This document shows, in pieces, positions 2,518 to 60,030 of a stretch of 64,000 nt of DNA. Source of the stretch: Sinomonas sp. P10A9 (lineage in GTDB: Bacteria > Actinomycetota > Actinomycetes > Actinomycetales > Micrococcaceae). The notes under the pieces were generated by a model. The model saw nothing but the letters and a program-made list of their open reading frames with translations, was not told the DNA's origin and did no database searches. Location of the stretch: the NCBI RefSeq assembly GCF_041022165.1, contig NZ_CP163302.1, positions 4,225,661 to 4,289,660 of the forward strand, read 5' to 3'. The position numbers and the translations under genes are program-made. Every line of letters starts with the position of its first letter. Position 1 is the stretch's first letter.

Positions 2518-3270
2518 TCAGAAGTCCGGGTTGCTCGGGATGATGAGCCCGGTCTCGTAGCCGTACACGACGGCCTGGACGCGGTCCCGCAGGTGCAGCT
2601 TGGTCAGGATCCGCCGCACGTGGCTCTTGACGGTCGCCTCGGAGAGGAAGAAGCGGTGCGCAATCTCGGCGTTGCTCAGGCCCTCGCAGATCGCCCGGAG
2701 CACCTCGAGCTCGCGCGGCGTGAGGTCCTTGAGGAGGGGGTCGAGCGCGGGGTCCGACTCGGCAGGCTGGCCGGGCGACGCGCCGCGCACGTAGGTCTCG
2801 AGCAGGCGCTGGGTCACGCGGGGGCTCACGACGGCGTCGCCGCTCGCCACGAGGCGCACTGCCTGGACGAGCTCGGCCGGAACAACGTCCTTGAGCAGGA
2901 ATGCGGAGGCGCCGGCCTGAAGGCCCGCGAAGGCGTACTCGTCGAGATCGAAGGTCGTGAGGATGATGATCCGCGCCGCGGAGTGCTCGGCCGCGATGCG
3001 CCGTGTGGCCTCGATGCCGTCCATGACGGGCATCCGCACGTCCATGAGCACCACGTCCGGCGCGAGCGAGCGCGTGAGGCGCACCGCCTCCTCGCCGTTG
3101 CCGGCCTCGCCGACCACCTCGATCCCGTCCTCGGATTCGAGCACGAGCCGGAAGCCCATCCTCAGCAGCGGCTGATCGTCGACGAGGAGCAGGCGCAGTG
3201 GCGCGCCGCCGTGCGCCACCTCATGCGGTCGTCCGGCAGGGTCGGCCTCCATCCGGTGCGCCTCGTCCAT
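2518..3270 (-). CDS. NarL/LuxR-family response regulator
   Basis: A 250-residue regulator. The receiver domain (about residues 25-140) has the acidic pair in LLLVDDQP and the phospho-acceptor D77 in VVLMDVRMP. The C-terminal LuxR helix-turn-helix (LTPRELEVL...SNAEIAHRFFLSEATVKSHV) occupies about 180-240. Its ATG overlaps the TGA of the upstream sensor kinase (ATGA), so the two are translationally coupled. Last gene of an ABC-transporter/two-component operon; it probably controls that exporter, as is common for this arrangement. Confidence 0.9.
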   Translation of the reverse strand: MDEAHRMEADPAGRPHEVAHGGAPLRLLLVDDQPLLRMGFRLVLESEDGIEVVGEAGNGEEAVRLTRSLAPDVVLMDVRMPVMDGIEATRRIAAEHSAARIIILTTFDLDEYAFAGLQAGASAFLLKDVVPAELVQAVRLVASGDAVVSPRVTQRLLETYVRGASPGQPAESDPALDPLLKDLTPRELEVLRAICEGLSNAEIAHRFFLSEATVKSHVRRILTKLHLRDRVQAVVYGYETGLIIPSNPDF

Positions 3271-4487
3271 CAGCGATCCCCCTCGATCCAGTGGAGTTCG
3301 GTCTCCACGACCCATCCTCCTCCAGGCCGCGGACCGGCGTGTAGTGTCCCCCCGTACAGGGCGGCCCGTTCGCGCATCCCGGCGAGTCCCCCGCCGGTCC
3401 CGAGGCGAGGCTCCGCGCCGTCGTGCGTCCCGCCGTCGTTCTCGACCCGGATCCGCACGCGACTGCCCTCCCGCTCCACCGTCACGTCGACCCTGCCGAC
3501 GCTGCGCCCGTACCGCAGGGCATTGGTGAGGGACTCCTGGACGATGCGGTAGATGGCCAGCTGGAAGGCCGGATCGGGCGGCGGCGGCGCGCCGGTGAGA
3601 GTCAGCACCGCCGGCAGCCCCGCCGTTCGGAAACCGGCCACGAGCGCGTGCAGGCTCTCCATCCCTGGCGTGGGCGCGAGGCTGGTCCCGGGGTTCTCCC
3701 GCAGGACGCCGAGCACGCGCCGCATATCCGCGAGTGCCGTCCGGCCGGTCCGGGACAGCTCGCCGAGCACCTCTTGGGCCCGTTCCACGTCCTTGGGCGC
3801 GACCTTCGCGGCGCCGTCGCTCAGGGTGACCATGACCGTGAGGGAGTGCGCGACGACGTCATGCATCTCCCGCGCGATCCGATTCCGCTCCTGGACCGAG
3901 GCGAGTTCGGCGCGGCGCATGGCCCAGGCCCTGACCTCGGCCTGGTGCTCGCGACTGCCCCGCACCCACGCGCCGAGACCGGCTGCGATGACGTCCATGA
4001 GCAGCACGGACACGGCCGCTACGAGGCCAACGTACCGGGCATTGGCAGAGATCTCGGGGCCGTGCGGCGTGTACACGAACGCGTAGTACACCGAGGCAGG
4101 CACGGAGGCGAGGAGGGCCGCGCCGAACGCGACCAGGGCCGGCGCCGCAACCGCCACGGAGTAGAGGGCGAAGAACATCGCCCCACTCATGACGGAGCTG
4201 TTCGGAGACTGGTACAGCAGGGCGGCATCGATCGCCACGGTGACGACAAGAACGGCCCAGGGCGAGCGCCGTCGGGCTCGCAGGGCGAGCTGCTGGACCG
4301 CGAGGAGCGCGAACCTCACCCAATGGCCCTGTATCGCGAATTCGGCGAAGAGTGGAAGCGTCAGGAGGGTCGCGGCCGCGACGACGATCCAGTCCATCGC
4401 CACCGGGTGGTCGGCCAGGTACGCGCGAAGGCGGCCCCGCCGGGGCGGGGCCGCGAGCACGAGGTTCTGCGCGGGCAGCGCTGGCAC
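3270..4487 (-). CDS. Sensor histidine kinase (HisKA_3/NarX type)
   Basis: A 405-residue membrane kinase starting at GTG 4487 with GGAGG 5 nt upstream. Residues about 30-175 hold five to six membrane segments with almost no extracellular domain, so it probably senses a membrane-located signal or its cognate transporter. The phospho-acceptor is H209 in REMHDVVAHSL. A C-terminal HATPase_c domain with the N-box region around QESLTNALRYG and a GGGLAGMRERA G-box follows. It is coupled to the response regulator downstream and lies 25 nt after the ABC permease. Confidence 0.9.
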   Translation of the reverse strand: MPALPAQNLVLAAPPRRGRLRAYLADHPVAMDWIVVAAATLLTLPLFAEFAIQGHWVRFALLAVQQLALRARRRSPWAVLVVTVAIDAALLYQSPNSSVMSGAMFFALYSVAVAAPALVAFGAALLASVPASVYYAFVYTPHGPEISANARYVGLVAAVSVLLMDVIAAGLGAWVRGSREHQAEVRAWAMRRAELASVQERNRIAREMHDVVAHSLTVMVTLSDGAAKVAPKDVERAQEVLGELSRTGRTALADMRRVLGVLRENPGTSLAPTPGMESLHALVAGFRTAGLPAVLTLTGAPPPPDPAFQLAIYRIVQESLTNALRYGRSVGRVDVTVEREGSRVRIRVENDGGTHDGAEPRLGTGGGLAGMRERAALYGGTLHAGPRPGGGWVVETELHWIEGDR

Positions 4488-49641: not shown

Positions 49642-49726
49642 TTCCCATGTGTGAAGGGTTCCATCTGTGAAGGGTTCTCGACGCCTCGCGCCTCCCCTTG
49701 GGTACGCTTGTACGGGAGAGCTCCAT

Positions 49727-49752
49727 GGAATATCGATACCTATCGATGTGTT
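49727..49752 (+). promoter_or_regulatory. Sigma-R (SigH/SigR)-type promoter of trxBA
   Basis: GGAAT (49727-49731) and GTT (49750-49752) are exactly 18 nt apart, matching the thiol-stress ECF sigma factor consensus GGAAT-N18-GTT known upstream of trxBA in Streptomyces and relatives. The predicted start near 49758 gives a leader of about 45 nt before trxB. Confidence 0.75.
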
Positions 49753-49804
49753 GTGGCTGCTGACACCGTTATCGTTCGATCGCCCAAAGAAGAGGTATAC
49801 ACCT

Positions 49805-50779
49805 GTGAGCACTGCTGAGACTGCCGCAGACGTGCGCGACGTCATCGTCGTCGGTTCCGGTCCCGCGGGGTACACCGCAGGCATCTACACAGCACGCGCC
49901 AACCTGAATCCGTTGATTATCGCGGGGTCGGTCACTGCCGGCGGTGAGCTCATGAACACCACCGAGGTCGAGAACTACCCGGGATTCCCCTCAGGAGTTC
50001 AGGGGCCGGAGCTCATGGACATGTTCGAGCAGCAGGCGTCCAAGTTCGGGGCACAGATCGAATTCGAGGACGTCGAGTCCGTGGAGCTCGACGGCGAGAT
50101 CAAGTCGGTCACCCTCGCGAGCGGTGAGACCTATAAAGCCCGAGCGATCATTCTTGCCACAGGCTCGGCCTACCGGGAACTCGGTCTCCCCAACGAGAAG
50201 CGCCTGTCCGGCCACGGCGTCAGCTGGTGTGCCACCTGTGATGGTTTCTTCTTCAAGGACCAGGACATCGCCGTTATCGGCGGCGGCGACTCCGCAATGG
50301 AGGAAGCCCTGTTCCTGACCCGGTTCGCCCGCTCCGTGACGGTCGTCCACCGCCGTGACAGCCTCCGCGCCTCCAAGATCATGGCCGATCGCGCCCTCTC
50401 CCACGAGAAGATCAAGTTTGCCTGGAACTCCGAGGTCGCCGACGTCGTCGGTGGTGAGAAGGTCACCGGTCTTCGTCTCCGCAACCTCCTCGACGGCACC
50501 GAAACCGAGCTCGCCGTGACGGGTATCTTCGTGGCCATCGGCAACGATCCGCGCACGAGCCTGGTCAAGGGCGTTCTCGAACTCACCGCCGAGGGCACCA
50601 TCGCCGTTGAAGGACGCTCCTCGAAGACCAGTCTTCCCGGCGTCTTCGCGGCTGGCGACGTTGTTGACCCCACCTACCGTCAGGCCATCACCGCAGCCGG
50701 TTCCGGGTGCGTGGCGGCGCTCGACGTCGAACACTATCTGGCCGACGTCGAATCCCGTTCCCTCGCAGCCCAGGCCTAG
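49805..50779 (+). CDS. trxB: Thioredoxin reductase
   Basis: A 324-residue FAD/NADPH enzyme that reduces thioredoxin. The FAD motif is [12 protein letters not shown], the redox-active pair is C142/C145 (WCATCDG), the NADPH motif is [10 protein letters not shown], and FAAGDVVD closes the FAD site. Start GTG 49805; an AGAGG site lies upstream. It forms an operon with trxA, 27 nt downstream, behind a sigma-R-type promoter. Confidence 0.96.
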
Positions 50780-50806: not shown

Positions 50807-51136
50807 ATGAGCAACGCCAAGAACGTCACTGACGCCGAGTTCACCGACGAGGTCCTCATGTCCGAGAAGCCTGTAATCGTGGACTTCTGGGCCGAATGGT
50901 GCGGCCCTTGCCGCAAGGTTGGCCCCATCCTCGACGACATCTCCGTCGAGTACGCCGACCGTGTCGATGTGGTCAAGGTCGATGTGGACAACAATCCAAA
51001 TATCGCGGCTGAGTATGGCATCACCTCCATTCCTGCTGTGTACCTGTTCGAGAAGGGTAGGGTCACCGGAACGGTGATCGGCGCCCGCCCGAAGCAGTAC
51101 TTCGAGAAGGAGTGGAGCGAGGTTCTCGTCAAGTAG
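50807..51136 (+). CDS. trxA: Thioredoxin
   Basis: A 109-residue thioredoxin with the active site WCGPC (C32/C35) and cis-Pro motif SIPAVYLF. It provides dithiol reducing power in the cytoplasm. The hairpin terminator at 51159-51188 ends the operon. Confidence 0.96.
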   Translation: MSNAKNVTDAEFTDEVLMSEKPVIVDFWAEWCGPCRKVGPILDDISVEYADRVDVVKVDVDNNPNIAAEYGITSIPAVYLFEKGRVTGTVIGARPKQYFEKEWSEVLVK

Positions 51137-51158
51137 ACACTTGGGCGAGTCCCCCCGC

Positions 51159-51188
51159 GGGGAGGTGCGGCGCATGCCGTGCCTCCCC
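51159..51188 (+). terminator. Terminator of trxBA
   Basis: GGGGAGG (51159-51165) pairs with CCTCCCC (51182-51188); an inner CGGC/GCCG stem extends it. TTCTTC follows. Confidence 0.75.
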
Positions 51189-51256
51189 TTCTTCATGGCC
51201 GCGGCTCTACTTGACCCGGCGCTACCTTCGGTCGTGCCCGGCCCCGAGCGCCAGCC

Positions 51257-51272
51257 TGTTTCACGTGAAACC
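51257..51272. other. parS: parS site 1
   Basis: TGTTTCACGTGAAACC: perfect 14-bp parS core with one outer mismatch. It lies 121 bp after trxA. Confidence 0.93.
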
Positions 51273-51779
51273 GGCCACCATTTGAGTTCGCCCTCGGCTC
51301 GCTACGCCCGCCGCCAGTCGGAATTTTGGCTTCGCTGACCCTCGGCACACATGTCCTATCAGTTGAACCGCACGGCACCTTCAAGTCTCGATCCACAACG
51401 CGGATCGGGTGGTTAGACGGATGGTGACCGCACAGGTTGCAGGAATGCGACGGACAGATAGTTCGGGCACGTGGTGCGCCAATTCCTCCAGGAGCATCCA
51501 GCTCCGCGCCGCTAAGGTGGCACGGCGGATGACTTGAAGGGGCTTCAGTGCTCATGGGTTTCCTATACGCCAGCGCACTGGTCGCGCAGCACCAAGTTTC
51601 GGCCGCCTCCAGCTGAACTCAAGCCCGCTAGCTTGGTGCAGCGACATCGAAGCGGAGCATGGAAATGACTCGACAAGTCGACTCCGCCGTCTCGATCCAG
51701 CCCCTGAATCGCCCCCTCGACCTAGCTGTTCCCTGATTCGGAGGGATGATCTCCACCCCTACTATCGACCAGGGCCTCT

Positions 51780-51795
51780 TGTTTCACGTGAAACA
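51780..51795. other. parS: parS site 2
   Basis: TGTTTCACGTGAAACA, exact 16-bp parS consensus. ParB-CTP loading site. Confidence 0.96.
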
Positions 51796-52844
51796 GCGCT
51801 GTCGGTCTCTCATCAGGCTCGGAAGTTGCGCATTCGGCCTTCTGAAAACCGGCCGTACACGAGATCCAGCTGACCAACCCGACATCTCATACGTGGGCCG
51901 CTTTCACGGCCGATGACCCGTTGAATCAACTCAAGAGGGTGTATCGGCCGGCGGAGGCAGTAGTCTTCCGTAGTGACTCAACGCTCAGGAAAGAGTGAAG
52001 CCAACGACTTTCACTACCACTCCCTCATCTCGCCTGTGGGCCATTGCCAATCTTCTGTCTCGCGCCCGAGCGCGACAAGCGGGACGTTCACATACCCCGT
52101 GACTGTCGATCCTGACTAGATTCGCGAACCAGTCCGAGCCCAGACGATAGCGGTCTGCTGAGCACCAAGCTGTTCATCATGACCATCAGGGGCAATCAAC
52201 GTCCTAGCATTGCCCGATCCGGCTCCTCGAGCAGGTATCGGCCCGACAACTCTTTGGTCGATAGTGCCACTGCGCGACATATCCCTGTCGCGCAACCGAC
52301 CATCGTCACACGCTCCCCAAGTCTCAAGAAACTAAATACTCAGGTTCAAGATCTCCAGGACTGCGCACTCCAAGTTTCGGCTCCTCCGGGCAAGCGTGCG
52401 CCCAGCAATGCCGCGACCATGCCCGATCGCGACGCTCCCATCGTTCCCACCAGCACTCAAGTCGGGATCGCGCCGAGGTAGTCAGGCCCATCAGCGTTCG
52501 TGCGCCCAGTGATGGACACACCACAGCTGATGCGCGGAAGCGCCTTGTGGTGACCCTCAGACCGTCAAGTTGCAGGTAATGGTGTCGCGATCGCCTCGGC
52601 ATCATGGCTTCCCGTAGTCATCGGGAAGCCTTCGATAATCAAGCCACGGGTCCACGAACCACCCATGACGCGTGTGTGTTGATCGTTGCGGTGAGACCTA
52701 CGAGCGTCGGTAACGAGTCGGACGCGAGCCGCCGACAATCTATCCCAAGTGTCCTGGCGCGCGTGTCCTGCGGGTCATCGGTGTCTCCTGAACGGTCGGA
52801 GTCAGAGGATGGTTACAGTGACCATGAGTTCACACGGTAATAGG

Positions 52845-53510
52845 CGACGCGTTTGGCGTAGCGGGTGGCGAGGTCGGAGCTGCTCAAGGCGGTTAAGGCA
52901 GTCGTAGACAACATTTGGTGCGGCAGTCCTCGTGGGGTCGAATGCTAACGGTCGCCCGCCCGACGTCCCTTGCCCTTGGTCACGCGGCAGGGTCCTCCGG
53001 TCGGCTCGCTCGCGCCCATGGAGCGGATTCTGCGCCTGCGCGGCGCTACCGAGATCGAGGGGTGAGAGTAGATCTTGCCAGCCAGGACGGCTGCAATCGT
53101 GCTATGCGGTCTGCCGGGGCCAAGCCAGAGCCGATGCGTTGGCCGCTACCCGTCTCGCGCAGGGCCTCGGCTGAGGGCGCGTTCCGCGTCCTGAACCGAG
53201 TGTCGGATCACTCATCGGTAGCCCCCTCCCGTCGACCGCGAGGTGGATCCTGCAGCTCAGTTCGTGCGGAGAGTTTCGATGCCGTCACTATCCGTTGCGA
53301 TGGGCTCGACCGCGGGCTGACAGCCCTCTGATTCTAGGTCCAGGCGGCGTGCTGGTGAACCCCGAACGACGGTGGAGTCGATGCTGAAGACCCATTCGGC
53401 TTCCCCAACGGCGTCGCCCTTTGACGGCGGGATCAGCCATTCTCCGATGGTCCGTCCAGAGAACACTTCCGCAGTCGCTCGCGCGCGGTCTCCCACGGGC
53501 CGTCGGAAAG
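52845..53510 (-). pseudogene. Decayed IS5-family transposase
   Basis: Translating the minus strand in changing frames gives a series of pieces of an IS5-type DDE transposase in the correct order: GPWETARERLRKCSLDG (near 53500), GEAEWVFSIDSTVVR with VHQHAA in the next frame (near 53400), LSCRIHLAVDGRG (near 53240) and NVVYDCLNRLEQLR (near 52900). Several frameshifts and stops separate them, so it cannot be active. I could not locate terminal inverted repeats. Confidence 0.72.
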
Positions 53511-53689
53511 CTCCCGTCATGGGACCCCGGTGCACAGCATGAATTGGTATCGCTCTTGTCAGGTGCCCGTGATCGCACCAAGGTCCGAGACGGGAGGCGC
53601 CGGTTCGCTTCCGCCCCGCGCCCTGTCACTGAACCCGCCTCTGCCAACCACCCGCCGGACCCAACACTGCCCCCAGCACCAGCCCCCAT

Positions 53690-53825
53690 TCACAGGAAAC
53701 CTTTGCCAGCCGGCGTCGAGAGCGGCGTTGATGTTCTGGCGGAAGACGTTGGCAGGGTCCCACCCGCACTTGTGCGCCGACAGCTGAGCCACTGCGCATC
53801 TCTCCAGCCCGCAGGCCACAGCCAC
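53690..53825 (-). pseudogene. Possible remnant of a BBE-type FAD oxidase C-terminus
   Basis: The minus strand encodes WDPANVFRQNIN, close to the WDPDNVFRxNxNI ending of berberine-bridge-like oxidases. The match is short and lacks the rest of the enzyme. Confidence 0.3.
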
Positions 53826-53876
53826 CGTTCTGGCCTCACCTCACCGATCTCACTGGCGCCCCCTCTTCAACCAAAT

Positions 53877-53892
53877 GGTTTCACGTGAAACA
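53877..53892. other. parS: parS site 3
   Basis: GGTTTCACGTGAAACA: perfect 14-bp core (53878-53891), one outer mismatch. Confidence 0.93.
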
Positions 53893-54357
53893 TGAGCGCC
53901 TCGCTACCCGCTACCCAGAGGGCCACTCATGGTTTGACATGCCTTCTATCGACTTCACTCCTTCCACAGCGAGAATCCATGGCGCACCGGCTCGATAGCC
54001 GCTTGATGGGTTATGGTGCTCGACCATCCGACGCATCATTCAACCCGCGTACCAATCGAAGGCGGAGTCAATCGTCGGGCACACCATCAGCGCAGTCGGG
54101 GTCGGGCAGACCCCGTGACGACAGACCATGCCTCGAGCATCCGTTCCTTGGGACAGCCGAGAGGCCTCCCACACAGCCGAACCCATACTCGCGCATATTT
54201 GATCTTTCACGTTGGTTAGGTATTCGTCCATCGCTCGCACTCCAGGGAGTGTCGTCACTCGAAGCCGGATATAGGTGGGCAGGAAGGCCTCTCACCTCTA
54301 GCCGGAAAGGTGATGCGGTGGTGCCCACTCCCCGCGCAGCCCAGTCGCGCTCCAGGG

Positions 54358-54829
54358 CTATCCACACTCTTATCCACAGGTTCCATCCAGGGGCTTGCAC
54401 ATCGGAGTGACGGGATGACCGAAGACGAACGGGGACCCTGTGGATAGCGTTTCGGATCACGCTGCCAATAGGTTCTGCTTTGGTGATGGTCCGCAAGGAT
54501 GATGACAGGGAGCGGGGAGCACCAATGTGTCTGGTTCGCGTGGTGAGGCTACTTGCCAGGGATGCTGGTTGTCAGCGCACTTCGGTAGATATCGACGCTA
54601 GAACACCATATTGCAGACGACCCGCGACTCGAAGACTTCGGGTAGTGCGCCATGGCAGCAGAGCACGATGTCAACGCTCCCGGAGGCTACCCTCCGGTCA
54701 TGGCTAACCTATGGATCGGTCTGCGATGTAGAGCGTGCGACCTCCGCACATTATCGACAGGACTTATCAATACGGTTATCCACAGGGACCCCTCCGCGGC
54801 TGCAACGCCAGGGTTCGAAGTTGTCCACA
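54358..54829. other. Cluster of six DnaA-box-like sequences
   Basis: Two exact TTATCCACA boxes occur at 54370-54378 and 54776-54784. One-mismatch boxes occur at 54358-54366 (CTATCCACA), 54439-54447 (minus strand CTATCCACA), 54751-54759 (TTATCGACA) and 54821-54829 (TTGTCCACA). Five face right and one faces left. Boxes fall in two groups, 54358-54447 and 54751-54829. The density is like an origin or a DnaA titration site. The usual actinobacterial oriC is at dnaA, beyond the right edge, so function is uncertain. Confidence 0.7.
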
Positions 54830-55299
54830 GGTAGCCGAAGGATACCGGCCCTAACTTTTGAGCTCCGACCGCTGGTCCATGTCGGTTCATTTGGAACCAA
54901 GTCTCAGATTCGTCTTCCGGAGTCTCGAACAACTCGGCGACGCCAAGTTCAGGTCCACCGTGCGTTCAGTCTCCTGGCTCGTCAGTCCTCCCGTCGGCCG
55001 TCGCCATCTGAGACTGAAGAGCGGTCATCGGGCGGGTCCGAATCCAAGGTAGACGCGGAACTGCGTCATGCGAGAAGGCGTTGACTGCGGCAAACCCATG
55101 CCGGGGCGAAGACGAGACAACGCTCGAGGAGGTGCGGAGGTGGCGTCAGCTGGACACGCTAAGTCGTAGGCCGCACCCGTCACCTTCCGCAAGCTACGCG
55201 CCAGCTTCGGCAGGCCATTACGACAAGCTCAATGTGAAAGCCGCGCGCGGAAGGCCCCCGCTCACCTCCCACTGAGAGCAAGGCCAGATGGTCCATGGA

Positions 55300-55315
55300 T
55301 GTTTCACGTGAAACA
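55300..55315. other. parS: parS site 4
   Basis: TGTTTCACGTGAAACA, exact 16-bp consensus. Confidence 0.96.
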
Positions 55316-57172
55316 ACCGCCCTAACCACTGCAGACACCTTGGCCCCCGTGCGTATATCCCTCTGCCCCAACGATCGCAGCCCGCTGGTCATCGGTGCCA
55401 GATGGATACGAGCAAAGAGAAGAAGCAATCCCAGCATCCGCTGCAACACGGCATCACGGCTCCGATCGGGGGCAAATCCGGTGATGCCATTCCAGCCGAC
55501 CCATGGGAGCGCGCGCTCACGGCCATCAATGCCCGCCCTTCACTTCCATCCGGTTCCTGGAATGCCACTGAGCCACATGCAGTGTGGGAGATTCGGATCA
55601 CCAACCAAGAGACTCACACGACCTCAACCATGTCCGGTCTGAGACGACCCCCGCTCAATGTGCCTCTAGGCCCGCCAGTCCCCTCTGCCTGCACCAAGGT
55701 CAGGTGTCAGTCGCGCTCCCTCGTCTTGCGCGTACTCCCCGTGCGAGCCAACCCGAACATCTTGGCGGCTCCCGGGACGCGGACGCAACTGAGCCAAGAC
55801 GCGTAGCTAGCTGAGCCACCACGTTCTCCTCCAGATGCATCGCGGGAGTTCCGGGGTGCCGCCCGACAAGGAAAGGCTTCAGTTGAGATGGCTGGCAACA
55901 GGCCCGCTCAAAGTCGTCATCGGGTCGAACTCATAGCGATCCCCCCGTTGCCCCGCGCGAGGGAGTGCCGCAGACCCCCACACCGGAAAGCCAGATCGTC
56001 GAGTTCGATGGGCGCTCCACATTCCGTCGGGTCGGTGCTCGCCGCGGCGTCATCGCCATTGAATCCGGTCCGCTACTCGCACCTGCCCACAGCTTGGTCG
56101 AATCTAGACCGATCACTGAGTAAGCCGCGAAAGACCGGCGAGGCTCTGCGTGCACCTCACACCCCGCGTCTCCCGCCGGCATGCGCCAGCCAGCCCAAGC
56201 AACCCGGCGAGGACTGATGGTCAAGCCGGCAAAGACTCTGGATTCGCGCTCGTTAGTCCCCTAAGTCCTCTGTCCAGCTATACCGAACCCCAACTACAGC
56301 GACGATCATCTGCAAGCTGCCGCCATGCGGCACCGAGGGAACGTCCGCAGCCATGAGCCGGTGTCCGGTTAGCCGGCAGACGGCTATCACACACCTCCGT
56401 CGCGTAGTCAGTTGGAAATCGCGGCTGCTCACTACCGCGAAGGAGACCCATTCCGTGGAGTCGGCATTGAAGAACCTCGAAATCTGCCTCCAAGACGAGC
56501 TGGTTGTTCGTGTGAATCGCTGGGCGCGGCTAGGTCGCGGTGTGCTCAGACAGATAGTGCACTGAGACGGGCTGCAAGCTCGCGCAGCGGCGCACTCATC
56601 TTCTGCTGTTCAAAGAACAACTGCCTTCAGCGAAGGATGGCCGGCCAGGTCTCGGACGACGACAGGAACATGCGCCGCTCCGCATTCCGGAAGATCATTG
56701 GAGCATCGCCATCGACCGTCTCCTCTACGCATCGAGGCCCCAAGGATCACCCAGATTTGATGAGCCACACTCACCGTAGCCATTCACATCGCTCGGGCTG
56801 AAACTCCTCGTGCCACCCACACCGGAACCGTCCGTCTCGTCCTGACCCGGATGTTCTGCCACAAACGGTCCACAGCACCACATGATTCAAGACATACCTT
56901 GGCGACACCGGTCCGTCGAAGGCCCGCGCCGCGACCCAGCAGCTCGTGTCTACCGATCTCGATTGGTATATGTGGACTAGAAAGCCCCGTCGTAACCGAG
57001 TCACACATCAGGCTCAGCGGACGTAGCTTCCCCGACGACTGTGTACCTAGCGGACAAGCCGATCGCCGCCCACGCATAAGCGATCGAAGGTTAGTTGAGA
57101 GACGAAATCGGGCTCTGAACTCGGCGATCCACTTCGCTCGACACTCCCTCGGTCCAGTCCGGTTCGTCCTGG

Positions 57173-57188
57173 TGTTTCACGTGAAACA
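57173..57188. other. parS: parS site 5
   Basis: TGTTTCACGTGAAACA, exact 16-bp consensus. Confidence 0.96.
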
Positions 57189-57586
57189 GATGATTCCGCC
57201 GAATCCTCTCTCTTACTCCCCAGACCGCGATCCAGACCGCGATTACTCCAGATTGCGATCCGTCGTCCGCGACAGCACCAACGTCGGCCCGCGTCATCGG
57301 CCGAACAGACTACCGAGCATGACGCCTCCCAAGTTGAGCACGGACTGACGATCCCACCGAACTGAGTCGGGAAGCCAGCTTCCCCAAAGGCCTCGCCCGG
57401 AGAACGGCAAATGACCCTCGCCCCCTCGTCGGCCGGACAATGGGGCATACGCACTCAACACTCACGGATCCACGGCGTAGTAACAGAGAGCGAACGAGAG
57501 AAATCACCCGCGGACTAAGAAACCGACGAAGCCACCGACGAGGGCGCTTCTGAACTATCCACCAATGTCCAGCAAGACAGCAAAGC

Positions 57587-57616
57587 GGGGGTCCGTTTCA
57601 CGTGAAACGGACCCCC
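57587..57616. other. parS: parS site 6 within a 30-bp perfect palindrome
   Basis: The core GTTTCACGTGAAAC (57595-57608) is extended by GGGGGTCC on the left and its complement GGACCCCC on the right, giving a 30-bp perfect palindrome. It lies 46 bp after the parB stop, so the transcript could also fold into a terminator hairpin. Confidence 0.92.
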
Positions 57617-57662
57617 ACTTGCGAGCATTGAGAACTACGAGACTTCGTCGTGCGAAGGAATG

Positions 57663-58838
57663 CTATTCCTCTTCGGGGCTGATAAGCGTCATGATCCGGT
57701 TGAGATCCTCAACCGAAGCGAACTCGATGCTGACCTTGCCCTTCCTCGCGCCAAGAGTGATCTTCACATTGGTGTCGAGTCGATCCGAAAGAGAGGAGGC
57801 CAGGAAGTCGAGTCGTTCGTGCCGCGCGTTGTTGCGCGTCGAAGCTCGTCGAGCCTCCTGCGGCTCCTGATAGAGCGCCACGGCTTCCTCGGTTGCTCGA
57901 ACCGAAAGTCCCTCTGACACAATCTTCTGTGCCATGCGCTCAATCGAAACATCGTCTGGAAGCGACAACAAGGCGCGGGCGTGGCCCGCCGAGAGGACCC
58001 CCGCCGCAACCCGACGCTGAACCAACGGAGGAAGCCGAAGCAGGCGAATCGTATTGGACACTTGAGGCCGCGACCTGCCGATCCGGTCCGCAAGCTCCTC
58101 ATGGGTGGTCCCAAAGTCCTCGAGAAGCTGCTGGTACGCAGCGGCTTCTTCGAGCGGATTCAGCTGACTCCGGTGAAGGTTCTCAAGAAGGGCATCACGC
58201 AGCAGAGCATCATCGCCAGTGTCGCGGATAATGGCCGGAATGGCCTCCAGCCCGGCTTCCTTCGCGGCACGCCATCGCCGCTCACCCATGACCAGCTCAA
58301 ATGATTCACTACCCGATTCGGTTGATTTCCGAACCACGATGGGCTGGAGGATCCCGATCTCGCGAACCGAGTGGACCAGCTCGGCCATTTCCTCCTCATT
58401 GAAGACAGAACGAGGCTGCTTGCGATTCGGATGGATCTTCTCGACGGGGAGTTCGGCGAACTGAGCACCCGGAACCTCAACCAGGTCGAGATCATCGGTG
58501 TCCCGCTGCTTTGCCTTGGAGCGAGTGGACCTCACAGGCGGCCGCTTGCCTCCATCAACCGACGGCTCGTCAGCCTCAGGAGATGCCGTGACGGGAGTCT
58601 GTGCACCGTGGGACTCCTCCTTCTGCCCCGCCACAACCGGCTTCTCAGCTGGCACCCCCTCAGCCGAAGACTGGTCAGTCCTGGTCGTCTCCTCGGACTC
58701 GTCCTCGGTCCGCCGCCCCGAATCCGGGAAGAAGAGGTCCACAGGGCGCGCAGGCGCCGTCGAGCCACTGGCTGCCGGAGGTGCACTGGGAATGAGGGCT
58801 CCCAGGCCCCGGCCCAGTCCTCGGCGCTTCTCGCTCAT
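57663..58838 (-). CDS. parB: Chromosome-partitioning protein ParB
   Basis: A 391-residue CTPase/DNA-binding protein. The N-terminus RRGLGRGLGALIP contacts ParA. The CTP-binding part includes NRKQPRSVF and MGERRWRAAKEAG; the parS-reading helix-turn-helix is in THEELADRIGRSRPQVSNTIRLLRLP. The C-terminal dimer domain ends the protein. About 100 acidic or Ser-rich residues separate the tip from the CTPase domain. Start ATG 58838 has GGGAGGA 7 nt upstream. Six parS sites lie just downstream. Confidence 0.96.
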   Translation of the reverse strand: MSEKRRGLGRGLGALIPSAPPAASGSTAPARPVDLFFPDSGRRTEDESEETTRTDQSSAEGVPAEKPVVAGQKEESHGAQTPVTASPEADEPSVDGGKRPPVRSTRSKAKQRDTDDLDLVEVPGAQFAELPVEKIHPNRKQPRSVFNEEEMAELVHSVREIGILQPIVVRKSTESGSESFELVMGERRWRAAKEAGLEAIPAIIRDTGDDALLRDALLENLHRSQLNPLEEAAAYQQLLEDFGTTHEELADRIGRSRPQVSNTIRLLRLPPLVQRRVAAGVLSAGHARALLSLPDDVSIERMAQKIVSEGLSVRATEEAVALYQEPQEARRASTRNNARHERLDFLASSLSDRLDTNVKITLGARKGKVSIEFASVEDLNRIMTLISPEEE

Positions 58839-58913
58839 GCGGTTATCCTCCCTCACGCCCGGTAGCCGGGCACCTGACTGTTCGAGTCGTCTGCAACGGC
58901 ATGCGCCGTCGTC

Positions 58914-59891
58914 CTAGCCCTCAGCGATCTCCGCGGCTGCCTCGAGATACGAGAGCGCCCCCGTCGAGGTCGGGTCGTAGGTCATCACGGTCTGCTGGTA
59001 GCTCGGCGCCTCGGAGATCCGCACGGACCGCGGAACCACGGCCTCGAGCACCTGCTCAGGGAAATGCTCGCGCACCTCGGCTGCCACCTGGGCGGCAAGG
59101 TTTGTCCGACCGTCGTACATCGTCAGGAGGATCGTCGACACTCGAAGATCGGCATTGAGGTGCTTCTGGATCATCTCGATGTTCTTCAGCAGCTGGCTCA
59201 GTCCCTCGAGCGCGTAGTACTCGCACTGGATCGGGATCAGCACTTCGCTCGCGGCGCAGAAGGCGTTGACTGTCAGGAGGCCGAGGCTCGGCGGGCAGTC
59301 GATCAAGATGTAGTCGAGCCGCGGAAGACCCTCTTCAGCGCGCGTCACGGCGTAGTTCTCGATCGCCCGGCGGAGCCGCTGCTCACGAGCCACGAGCGAA
59401 ACCAGCTCGATCTCAGCGCCGGCCAGATGGATGGTCGCGGGGGCGCAGACGAGATTCTCGACGTCGGGGCACTGGGCGATGACGTCAGCGAGGGGTTCGT
59501 CGTTGATGAGGACGTCGTAGATGCTCTCGACCTCGGCATGATGCTCGATCCCGAGCGCCGTCGACGCATTGCCCTGAGGATCGATGTCAATCACGAGCAC
59601 CTGGAGGCCCGCAGAGGCCAGAGCAGCGGCGATGTTCACCGTTGTGGTCGTCTTTCCGACCCCGCCCTTCTGGTTGGACACCGTGAACACCCGAGTTGAG
59701 TCGGGCCTGCGGAACCTGCGCCCCTGAAGCCGCTCGCGGCGTCGTGCCTCATTTGCCAGCTGGGAGGCGATGGGGCTGCCCTCGTCAAGGGTCTTCAGGA
59801 GGGACTGGTCATCGCGCGGTAGGCTTCCCGGCATCCCGTCGGCTCCCTCCCGAGCCGGATGCGGAGCAGTATCCATGTCGCCGTCCGCCAT
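58914..59891 (-). CDS. parA: Chromosome-partitioning ATPase ParA
   Basis: A ParA/Soj ATPase of about 325 residues that moves ParB-parS complexes along the nucleoid. The deviant Walker A is KGGVGKTTT, the switch region DIDPQGNAS, and Walker B LIDCPPSLG. An N-terminal extension of about 65 residues precedes the ATPase. ATG 59891 is preferred; ATG 59876 and GTG 59993 are alternatives with no better ribosome site. parB follows after 75 bp. Confidence 0.94.
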   Translation of the reverse strand: MADGDMDTAPHPAREGADGMPGSLPRDDQSLLKTLDEGSPIASQLANEARRRERLQGRRFRRPDSTRVFTVSNQKGGVGKTTTTVNIAAALASAGLQVLVIDIDPQGNASTALGIEHHAEVESIYDVLINDEPLADVIAQCPDVENLVCAPATIHLAGAEIELVSLVAREQRLRRAIENYAVTRAEEGLPRLDYILIDCPPSLGLLTVNAFCAASEVLIPIQCEYYALEGLSQLLKNIEMIQKHLNADLRVSTILLTMYDGRTNLAAQVAAEVREHFPEQVLEAVVPRSVRISEAPSYQQTVMTYDPTSTGALSYLEAAAEIAEG

Positions 59892-60030
59892 GGCGCGCGC
59901 AGATCCGAGCGTCAGGAAAGGAGGGATCCGCTGGGCCGACGTATCGCCACTGCTCACTGTCAACTCACTCTCGATTCGCGTCAATTGCCTCACACCAGAC
60001 TAGCGTCTGCGCACGCACTACCGAGGGAGA

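Follow-up and report, generated by a model that had tools for sequence, protein, structure and literature searches.

The final 64 kb of the genome of Sinomonas sp. P10A9, a single contig of 4,289,660 bp (NZ_CP163302.1, positions 4,225,661 to 4,289,660; this 64,000-nucleotide stretch is hereafter the window), contain a long gene-free interval beside parB that carries six exact parS palindromes around a central group of DnaA boxes. We refer to this interval as the field. The order along the window is trxB and trxA (both on the + strand), the field, parB and parA, followed by further genes on the - strand to the contig end; dnaA and dnaN lie at the contig start. The adjacent parA and parB form the gene pair of a ParABS system, and among named relatives the nearest ParB, 73% identical, is that of Sinomonas cellulolyticus. 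We assume that the contig closes into a circle, and all distances to dnaA-dnaN rest on that assumption; in genome G006, parB and dnaA-dnaN occur within one contig (L113). In window coordinates, with ORF denoting an open reading frame, the features are:

49667..50779 (+): trxB, thioredoxin reductase (NCBIfam TIGR01292 above cut-off)
50807..51136 (+): trxA, thioredoxin, reading towards the field (NCBIfam TIGR01068 above cut-off)
51137..57662 (no strand): non-coding field between convergent trxA (+) and parB (-) (ORF, Pfam and periodicity tests)
51159..51188 (+): terminator-like hairpin 3' of trxA, 13 pairs then TTCTTC (terminator scan)
51258..51271 (no strand): parS 1, exact (parS and genome scan)
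51781..51794 (no strand): parS 2, exact (parS and genome scan)
52796..53580 (no strand): decayed insertion sequence (IS), remnant of an IS4/5-type transposase (about 67% DNA identity to L145/L146)
53878..53891 (no strand): parS 3, exact (parS and genome scan)
54358..54447 (no strand): DnaA-box array A, boxes at 54358 (+), 54370 (+, exact) and 54439 (-) (box scan; equivalent array in clade fields)
54751..54829 (+): DnaA-box array B, boxes at 54751, 54776 (exact) and 54821 (box scan; equivalent array in clade fields)
55301..55314 (no strand): parS 4, exact (parS and genome scan)
57174..57187 (no strand): parS 5, exact (parS and genome scan)
57595..57608 (no strand): parS 6, exact, 54 bp from the parB stop, at a hairpin tip (parS scan and hairpin comparison)
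57663..58856 (-): parB, reading towards the field (NCBIfam TIGR00180 above cut-off)
58914..59993 (-): parA, adjoining parB (ParA/RepA-type NCBIfam matches below equivalog cut-offs)

The field, bounded by the stop codons of trxA and parB, measures 6,526 bp (51137-57662). An earlier examination of the letters alone (the sequence-only reading) had described 51195..57662 as lacking any credible intact gene, and every coding test agrees. None of the 23 ORFs of at least 80 aa that lie wholly inside the field matched Pfam at cut-off (two sub-threshold matches had E-values of 0.36 and 0.023), and the longest, at 172 aa, falls under the mean of 12 shuffles (269). Three-base periodicity is 0.075 in the field vs 0.336 outside; in the 424 kb surrounding the origin, just one further stretch of similar length lacks periodicity, and an rRNA operon is located there. 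Searches of the window with Rfam and ARAGORN gave no matches. Conserved ORFs in close relatives, which the sequence-only reading had named as evidence that would overturn it, did not emerge either: among 116 field frames of at least 40 aa, three produced a single weak match apiece in 14 genus fields (25-49 aa, E 0.002-0.004), no more than chance would give with 116 queries. Two fields of the clade described below (L111, transposase-like by eye, and L022) contain an ORF that exceeds all 12 shuffles, as do several fields outside that clade.

The six 14-bp parS cores that had been reported were all found, and they are every exact copy in the 4,289,660-bp genome. Allowing two mismatches adds no further site to the window (shuffle mean 0.04, largest shuffle 1). 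Provided that the contig is circular, these multiple parS sites lie close to oriC, about 8-14 kb from dnaA-dnaN. The same concentration is seen across the genus, where 85 of 91 exact parS in 15 genomes fall within the field; the remaining six, one per genome, lie towards parA, at 2.2-2.3 kb from the parB stop.

To place the field in context, we compared the parB-trxA gap of 14 additional genomes of the genus, including one of the same species, with that of 80 loci identified by their ParB, not all of which are complete. The same-species locus L107 was excluded from most counts. Genus gaps, including that of S. cellulolyticus, span 3,052-6,742 bp with 4-7 exact parS, and the 35 clade fields span 3.1-9.1 kb. 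Almost none of this DNA can be aligned between species. The blastn-alignable fraction has a median of 0.000 among genus fields (210 ordered pairs, largest 0.047) and 0.006 among Arthrobacter-group fields (306 pairs); the corresponding medians for the dnaA-dnaN spacer are 0.63 and 0.81. The parS sites persist nonetheless. In 34 fields totaling 180,458 bp we counted 232 exact parS, 21 with one mismatch, one with two, and 11 with three, and each field holds 4-11 exact copies; a single shuffle of the same fields yielded zero exact, zero one-mismatch, zero two-mismatch, and six three-mismatch sites. Because exact copies outnumber those with one or two mismatches by 232 to 22, parS is held nearly letter-exact amid DNA that has otherwise been replaced. 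A search for over-represented words that used no prior motif led to the same elements: within the top-30 word lists, those that exceed the shuffle maximum are fragments, flanks, or near-copies of parS or the DnaA box. The sequence-only reading had suggested a comparison with relatives, to see whether parS is conserved within unalignable DNA, and had proposed that selection acts on the sites; the relatives do show such conservation, and selection on the sites is well supported by the 232 exact copies in unalignable fields.

Within the species, L107 and the window's field are 94.7% identical across the first 4 kb and 99.6% identical beyond it. About 105 substitutions fall in 2.25 kb and about 20 in the other 4.3 kb, and this sharp drop in divergence near 53.4 kb looks as if it marked a recombination boundary.

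The second element of the field is a DnaA-box module at 54358-54829, in which six boxes (at most one mismatch, as in all box counts here) occupy 472 bp; the genome's own dnaA-dnaN spacer has two. Equivalent modules occur in a single clade that comprises Sinomonas, Pseudarthrobacter, and many Arthrobacter and Paenarthrobacter. Across 33 modules, 169 of 176 boxes are on the + strand, and field DNA outside the modules has only nine boxes in 166,722 bp. The internal architecture is similarly regular: successive + strand boxes that are set close together are 12-13 bp apart in 56 of 103 pairs, and the two arrays are separated by 289-389 bp, measured between the starts of their facing boxes. The module occupies a mid-field position, 0.44-0.66 of the field length, in 34 of 35 fields. 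In the remaining one, L007, an intact-looking transposase-like ORF (field positions 2884-3879; family by eye) separates two doublets that stand 1.85 kb apart. The numbers of parS on the two sides of the module are equal or one apart in 15/15 genus fields and 13/18 Arthrobacter-group fields. A parS between the arrays is found in 15/18 Arthrobacter-group fields, 80-131 bp from array B, and in 0/15 genus fields.

A tree of ParA, DnaA, and ParB confines the module to a single 36-row clade, of which 33 members have it, L007 has it split, and two are incomplete. The tree is a quick one (SH-aLRT 99, no bootstrap, long branches elsewhere) that covers 70 of 95 loci; six incomplete rows are uncounted, and 24 loci, mostly outgroup, were omitted along with L107. 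Its count is fairer than one over the Arthrobacter-group fields, which were chosen for their boxes. For example, two of the three complete records titled Paenarthrobacter fall inside the clade and have the module, and L028 falls outside and lacks it. DnaA boxes are clustered outside oriC, with a separate oriC present, as in known DnaA control loci. Elsewhere in the genome, a further group of DnaA boxes was observed 16.6-20.4 kb to the right of dnaA (genome 16587-20452; L005:16587-17874 and L124:357-452). No equivalent group at up to one mismatch appears in the 5-25 kb interval of G002 and G005; G006 (L144) contains one with nearly matching internal spacings (13, 107, and 65 bp).

The third element links the field to parB itself. 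At 57587-57616, directly 3' of parB, perfect hairpin arms enclose a tip formed by parS 6. Of 94 loci, 35 have a parS no more than 65 bp away from the parB stop, and arms of at least six pairs (at most one mismatch) flank 31 of these 35 sites vs 29 of 267 other parS. The arms co-vary across the 35 genomes, as a terminator stem would, with 345 of 385 cells paired and a mean of 190 (maximum 235) in 2000 reshuffles, relatives not being independent of one another. Past the stem, the mean T fraction is 0.40, higher than the 0.16 that follows the other parS and the 0.24 of the opposite strand. The 35 hairpin loci are assigned to Micrococcaceae by record title or genus membership, the genera being ones that we take to belong to that family. 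In other relatives a separate hairpin, judged by eye, stands ahead of parS. Overall, the hairpin looks like a possible parB terminator built on parS in many Micrococcaceae. The window's own parS 6 hairpin has a weak T tract and was not picked up by the terminator scan; that scan returned four sites vs a shuffle mean of 4.4, so by itself it proves nothing. If the terminator is real, one palindrome would be read as DNA by ParB and as RNA by RNA polymerase.

We propose, with a probability of roughly 0.6, that the field is a ParB centromere poor in transcription and that its center holds a DnaA-binding control locus. ParB would load at the six parS and spread over the 6.5-kb field to form the ParABS partition complex, which is probably also a platform for SMC loading, and would slide over DNA that no gene needs transcribed. 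Little transcription is expected across the field, since both flanking genes end at its borders. The sequence would then be nearly free to drift, with selection retaining the short sites and, seemingly, enough DNA. The central arrays would act as a DnaA-binding locus inside the partition complex, some 11 kb away from oriC. Its most likely role is that DnaA bound beside the complex sets DnaA availability, or the control of DnaA by ParA/ParB, at the newly copied origin, and such binding would link initiation with segregation. According to PMC7022226, ParA (Soj) controls DnaA in Bacillus, and direct ParB-DnaA contacts are reported for Deinococcus and Vibrio; by analogy, a store of DnaA at the centromere would fit control of this kind. 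The phrase "compact bacterial centromere region" in the sequence-only reading is well supported as far as it goes and is incomplete, as it omits the central DnaA-box module and the terminator-like parS hairpin.

A more far-reaching version, which we offer tentatively and rate below even odds, is that the field constitutes a joint replication-segregation organ: a centromere selected for length, free in sequence, poor in transcription, and symmetric around a DnaA array. A ParB complex and a DnaA filament would lie adjacent, the segregation of the origin would gate the next initiation, and one parS would double as the parB terminator in many Micrococcaceae.

Several observations weigh against the proposed centromere and control locus. 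The 19 Arthrobacter-group fields were chosen because they show DnaA boxes. The mid-field position of the module and the balance of parS around it may come partly from shared descent, as the genomes are not independent. A same-species comparison with G011 found 125 substitutions and none in the sites, which proves nothing when about 1.7 would be expected in parS and about 1.1 in the boxes. The promoter-like scan is at shuffle level and neither shows nor excludes transcription. Finally, the flank of the module that faces parB has a higher AT skew than the flank facing trxA (p 0.041 and 1.9e-5), and this is unexplained.

The last point bears on an alternative in which the module is an active or auxiliary origin, so that the field would be a fused origin and centromere with initiation there beside or instead of dnaA-dnaN. 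Two box arrays around a slightly AT-richer middle do recall bipartite origins, and the module, with six boxes, exceeds the two of the dnaA-dnaN spacer. AT content climbs to about 0.44-0.47 around the module from about 0.38, with weak peaks at the arrays and the center, in DNA that is largely unalignable between species. Third-position GC skew of parA and parB is also somewhat more negative in the module groups than in Micrococcaceae without the module (for parA, -0.045 and -0.120 vs -0.030), again unexplained; these small shifts and the unequal AT skew point opposite to a rejection of the module as main origin. However, GC skew on average lacks, over 34 fields, the switch at the module that an oriC would show: the means on its two sides are -0.071/-0.069 in 15 fields and -0.052/-0.040 in 19, a difference that is not significant. 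Among the flanking genes, trxA/trxB are more negative than parA/parB with or without the module, and dnaA is not less negative where the module is present. A canonical oriC is located between dnaA and dnaN, separate from the module and far better conserved; its conserved boxes and AT-rich motifs occur whether or not a lineage has the module (11 compared). Cumulative skew over 424 kb is uninformative, with a minimum at 198906 (window coordinates), far from both candidates. Because oriC is separate and conserved and GC skew lacks a switch, the module is probably not the main origin, a role left unsupported by GC skew, by third-position skew of the flanking genes, and by dnaA-dnaN conservation; we consider an active or auxiliary origin here improbable. 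An account with still less in its favor, and in our view very improbable, treats the field as neutral debris from the loss of an Amidase_3 gene and an IS insertion, with the sites as leftovers of a normal parS cluster. The gap does contain an Amidase_3 gene in two relatives, L027 and L031, as well as in outgroup L080, and an IS remnant is present in the field. Yet the field DNA has been replaced beyond alignment while every one of 34 fields retains 4-11 exact parS and 33 of them the DnaA arrays, which are split in the 34th. The gap has also kept a size of 3-9 kb throughout the clade, although bacteria usually lose DNA that they do not need.

The proposed centromere with its DnaA-binding locus shares parts with several known systems and matches none in full. 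As described in PMC7083940, the ParABS centromere of Corynebacterium glutamicum has ten parS over 35 kb, 73 kb from oriC, nine of the ten intergenic; the palindromic parS type and the clustering on one side of oriC are the same, whereas here all sites share a single gene-free gap of 6.5 kb next to parB and surround a DnaA-box module. In Bacillus, according to a review (PMC5295017), removal of six DnaA-box clusters outside oriC leads to early initiation, an effect that is strong only when all six are gone; the review adds that DnaA-box clusters with significant roles are not identified there. Like these oriC-proximal clusters of Bacillus subtilis, and like datA/DARS of Escherichia coli (PMC4585315), the module groups DnaA boxes outside oriC, where such clusters can modulate initiation; unlike them, it stands at the center of a parS array. 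The bipartite oriC, as outlined in PMC5295017, similarly has two DnaA-box arrays with a spacer, in contrast to which the module has no GC-skew switch, no clear AT-rich element, and an unconserved sequence, next to a conserved oriC at dnaA-dnaN. The parS hairpin that follows parB in many Micrococcaceae resembles intrinsic terminators in its long, near-perfect stem and, on average, in the T-rich tract behind it, and differs in that its loop and upper stem are an exact parS and that the window's T tract is weak. Neither a DnaA-box module inside a parS field nor a parS inside a parB terminator is described in the titles and abstract openings of the matches listed, from a collection that lacks most subscription papers.

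How replication initiation is coupled to origin segregation in bacteria is an open question. This locus brings both kinds of site into one gene-free stretch, nearly as clean as a synthetic construct, with almost nothing conserved outside parS and DnaA boxes, and in these soil bacteria the sites, their spacing, and the field length can be altered separately. The field would also be an instance of bacterial DNA kept, seemingly, for its amount and its sites and not for its sequence.

As for how the field arose, the sequence-only reading held that genes had decayed in it, citing an IS5 remnant. That stands for an IS remnant of 0.8 kb, and decay is shown only there. The segment at 52796-53580 has about 67% DNA identity to an element that is repeated in two of the 80 family genomes; any match at all was obtained in 11 genomes, namely the genome itself, eight with short matches, and the two with the repeated element. 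The ORFs of the L145 copy match PF13340 and PF01609 (IS4/5-type DDE transposases). Pfam found nothing in the six frames of the remnant itself, and no second copy in its own genome matched among the 40 of 53 candidates scored. Pfam likewise gave no Amidase_3 match among the 23 ORFs of the window's field. A plausible order of events is loss of Amidase_3, then spread of parS, then gain of the DnaA module. In a related field, L111, an intact-looking transposase-like ORF, its family judged by eye, occupies field positions 159-1811.

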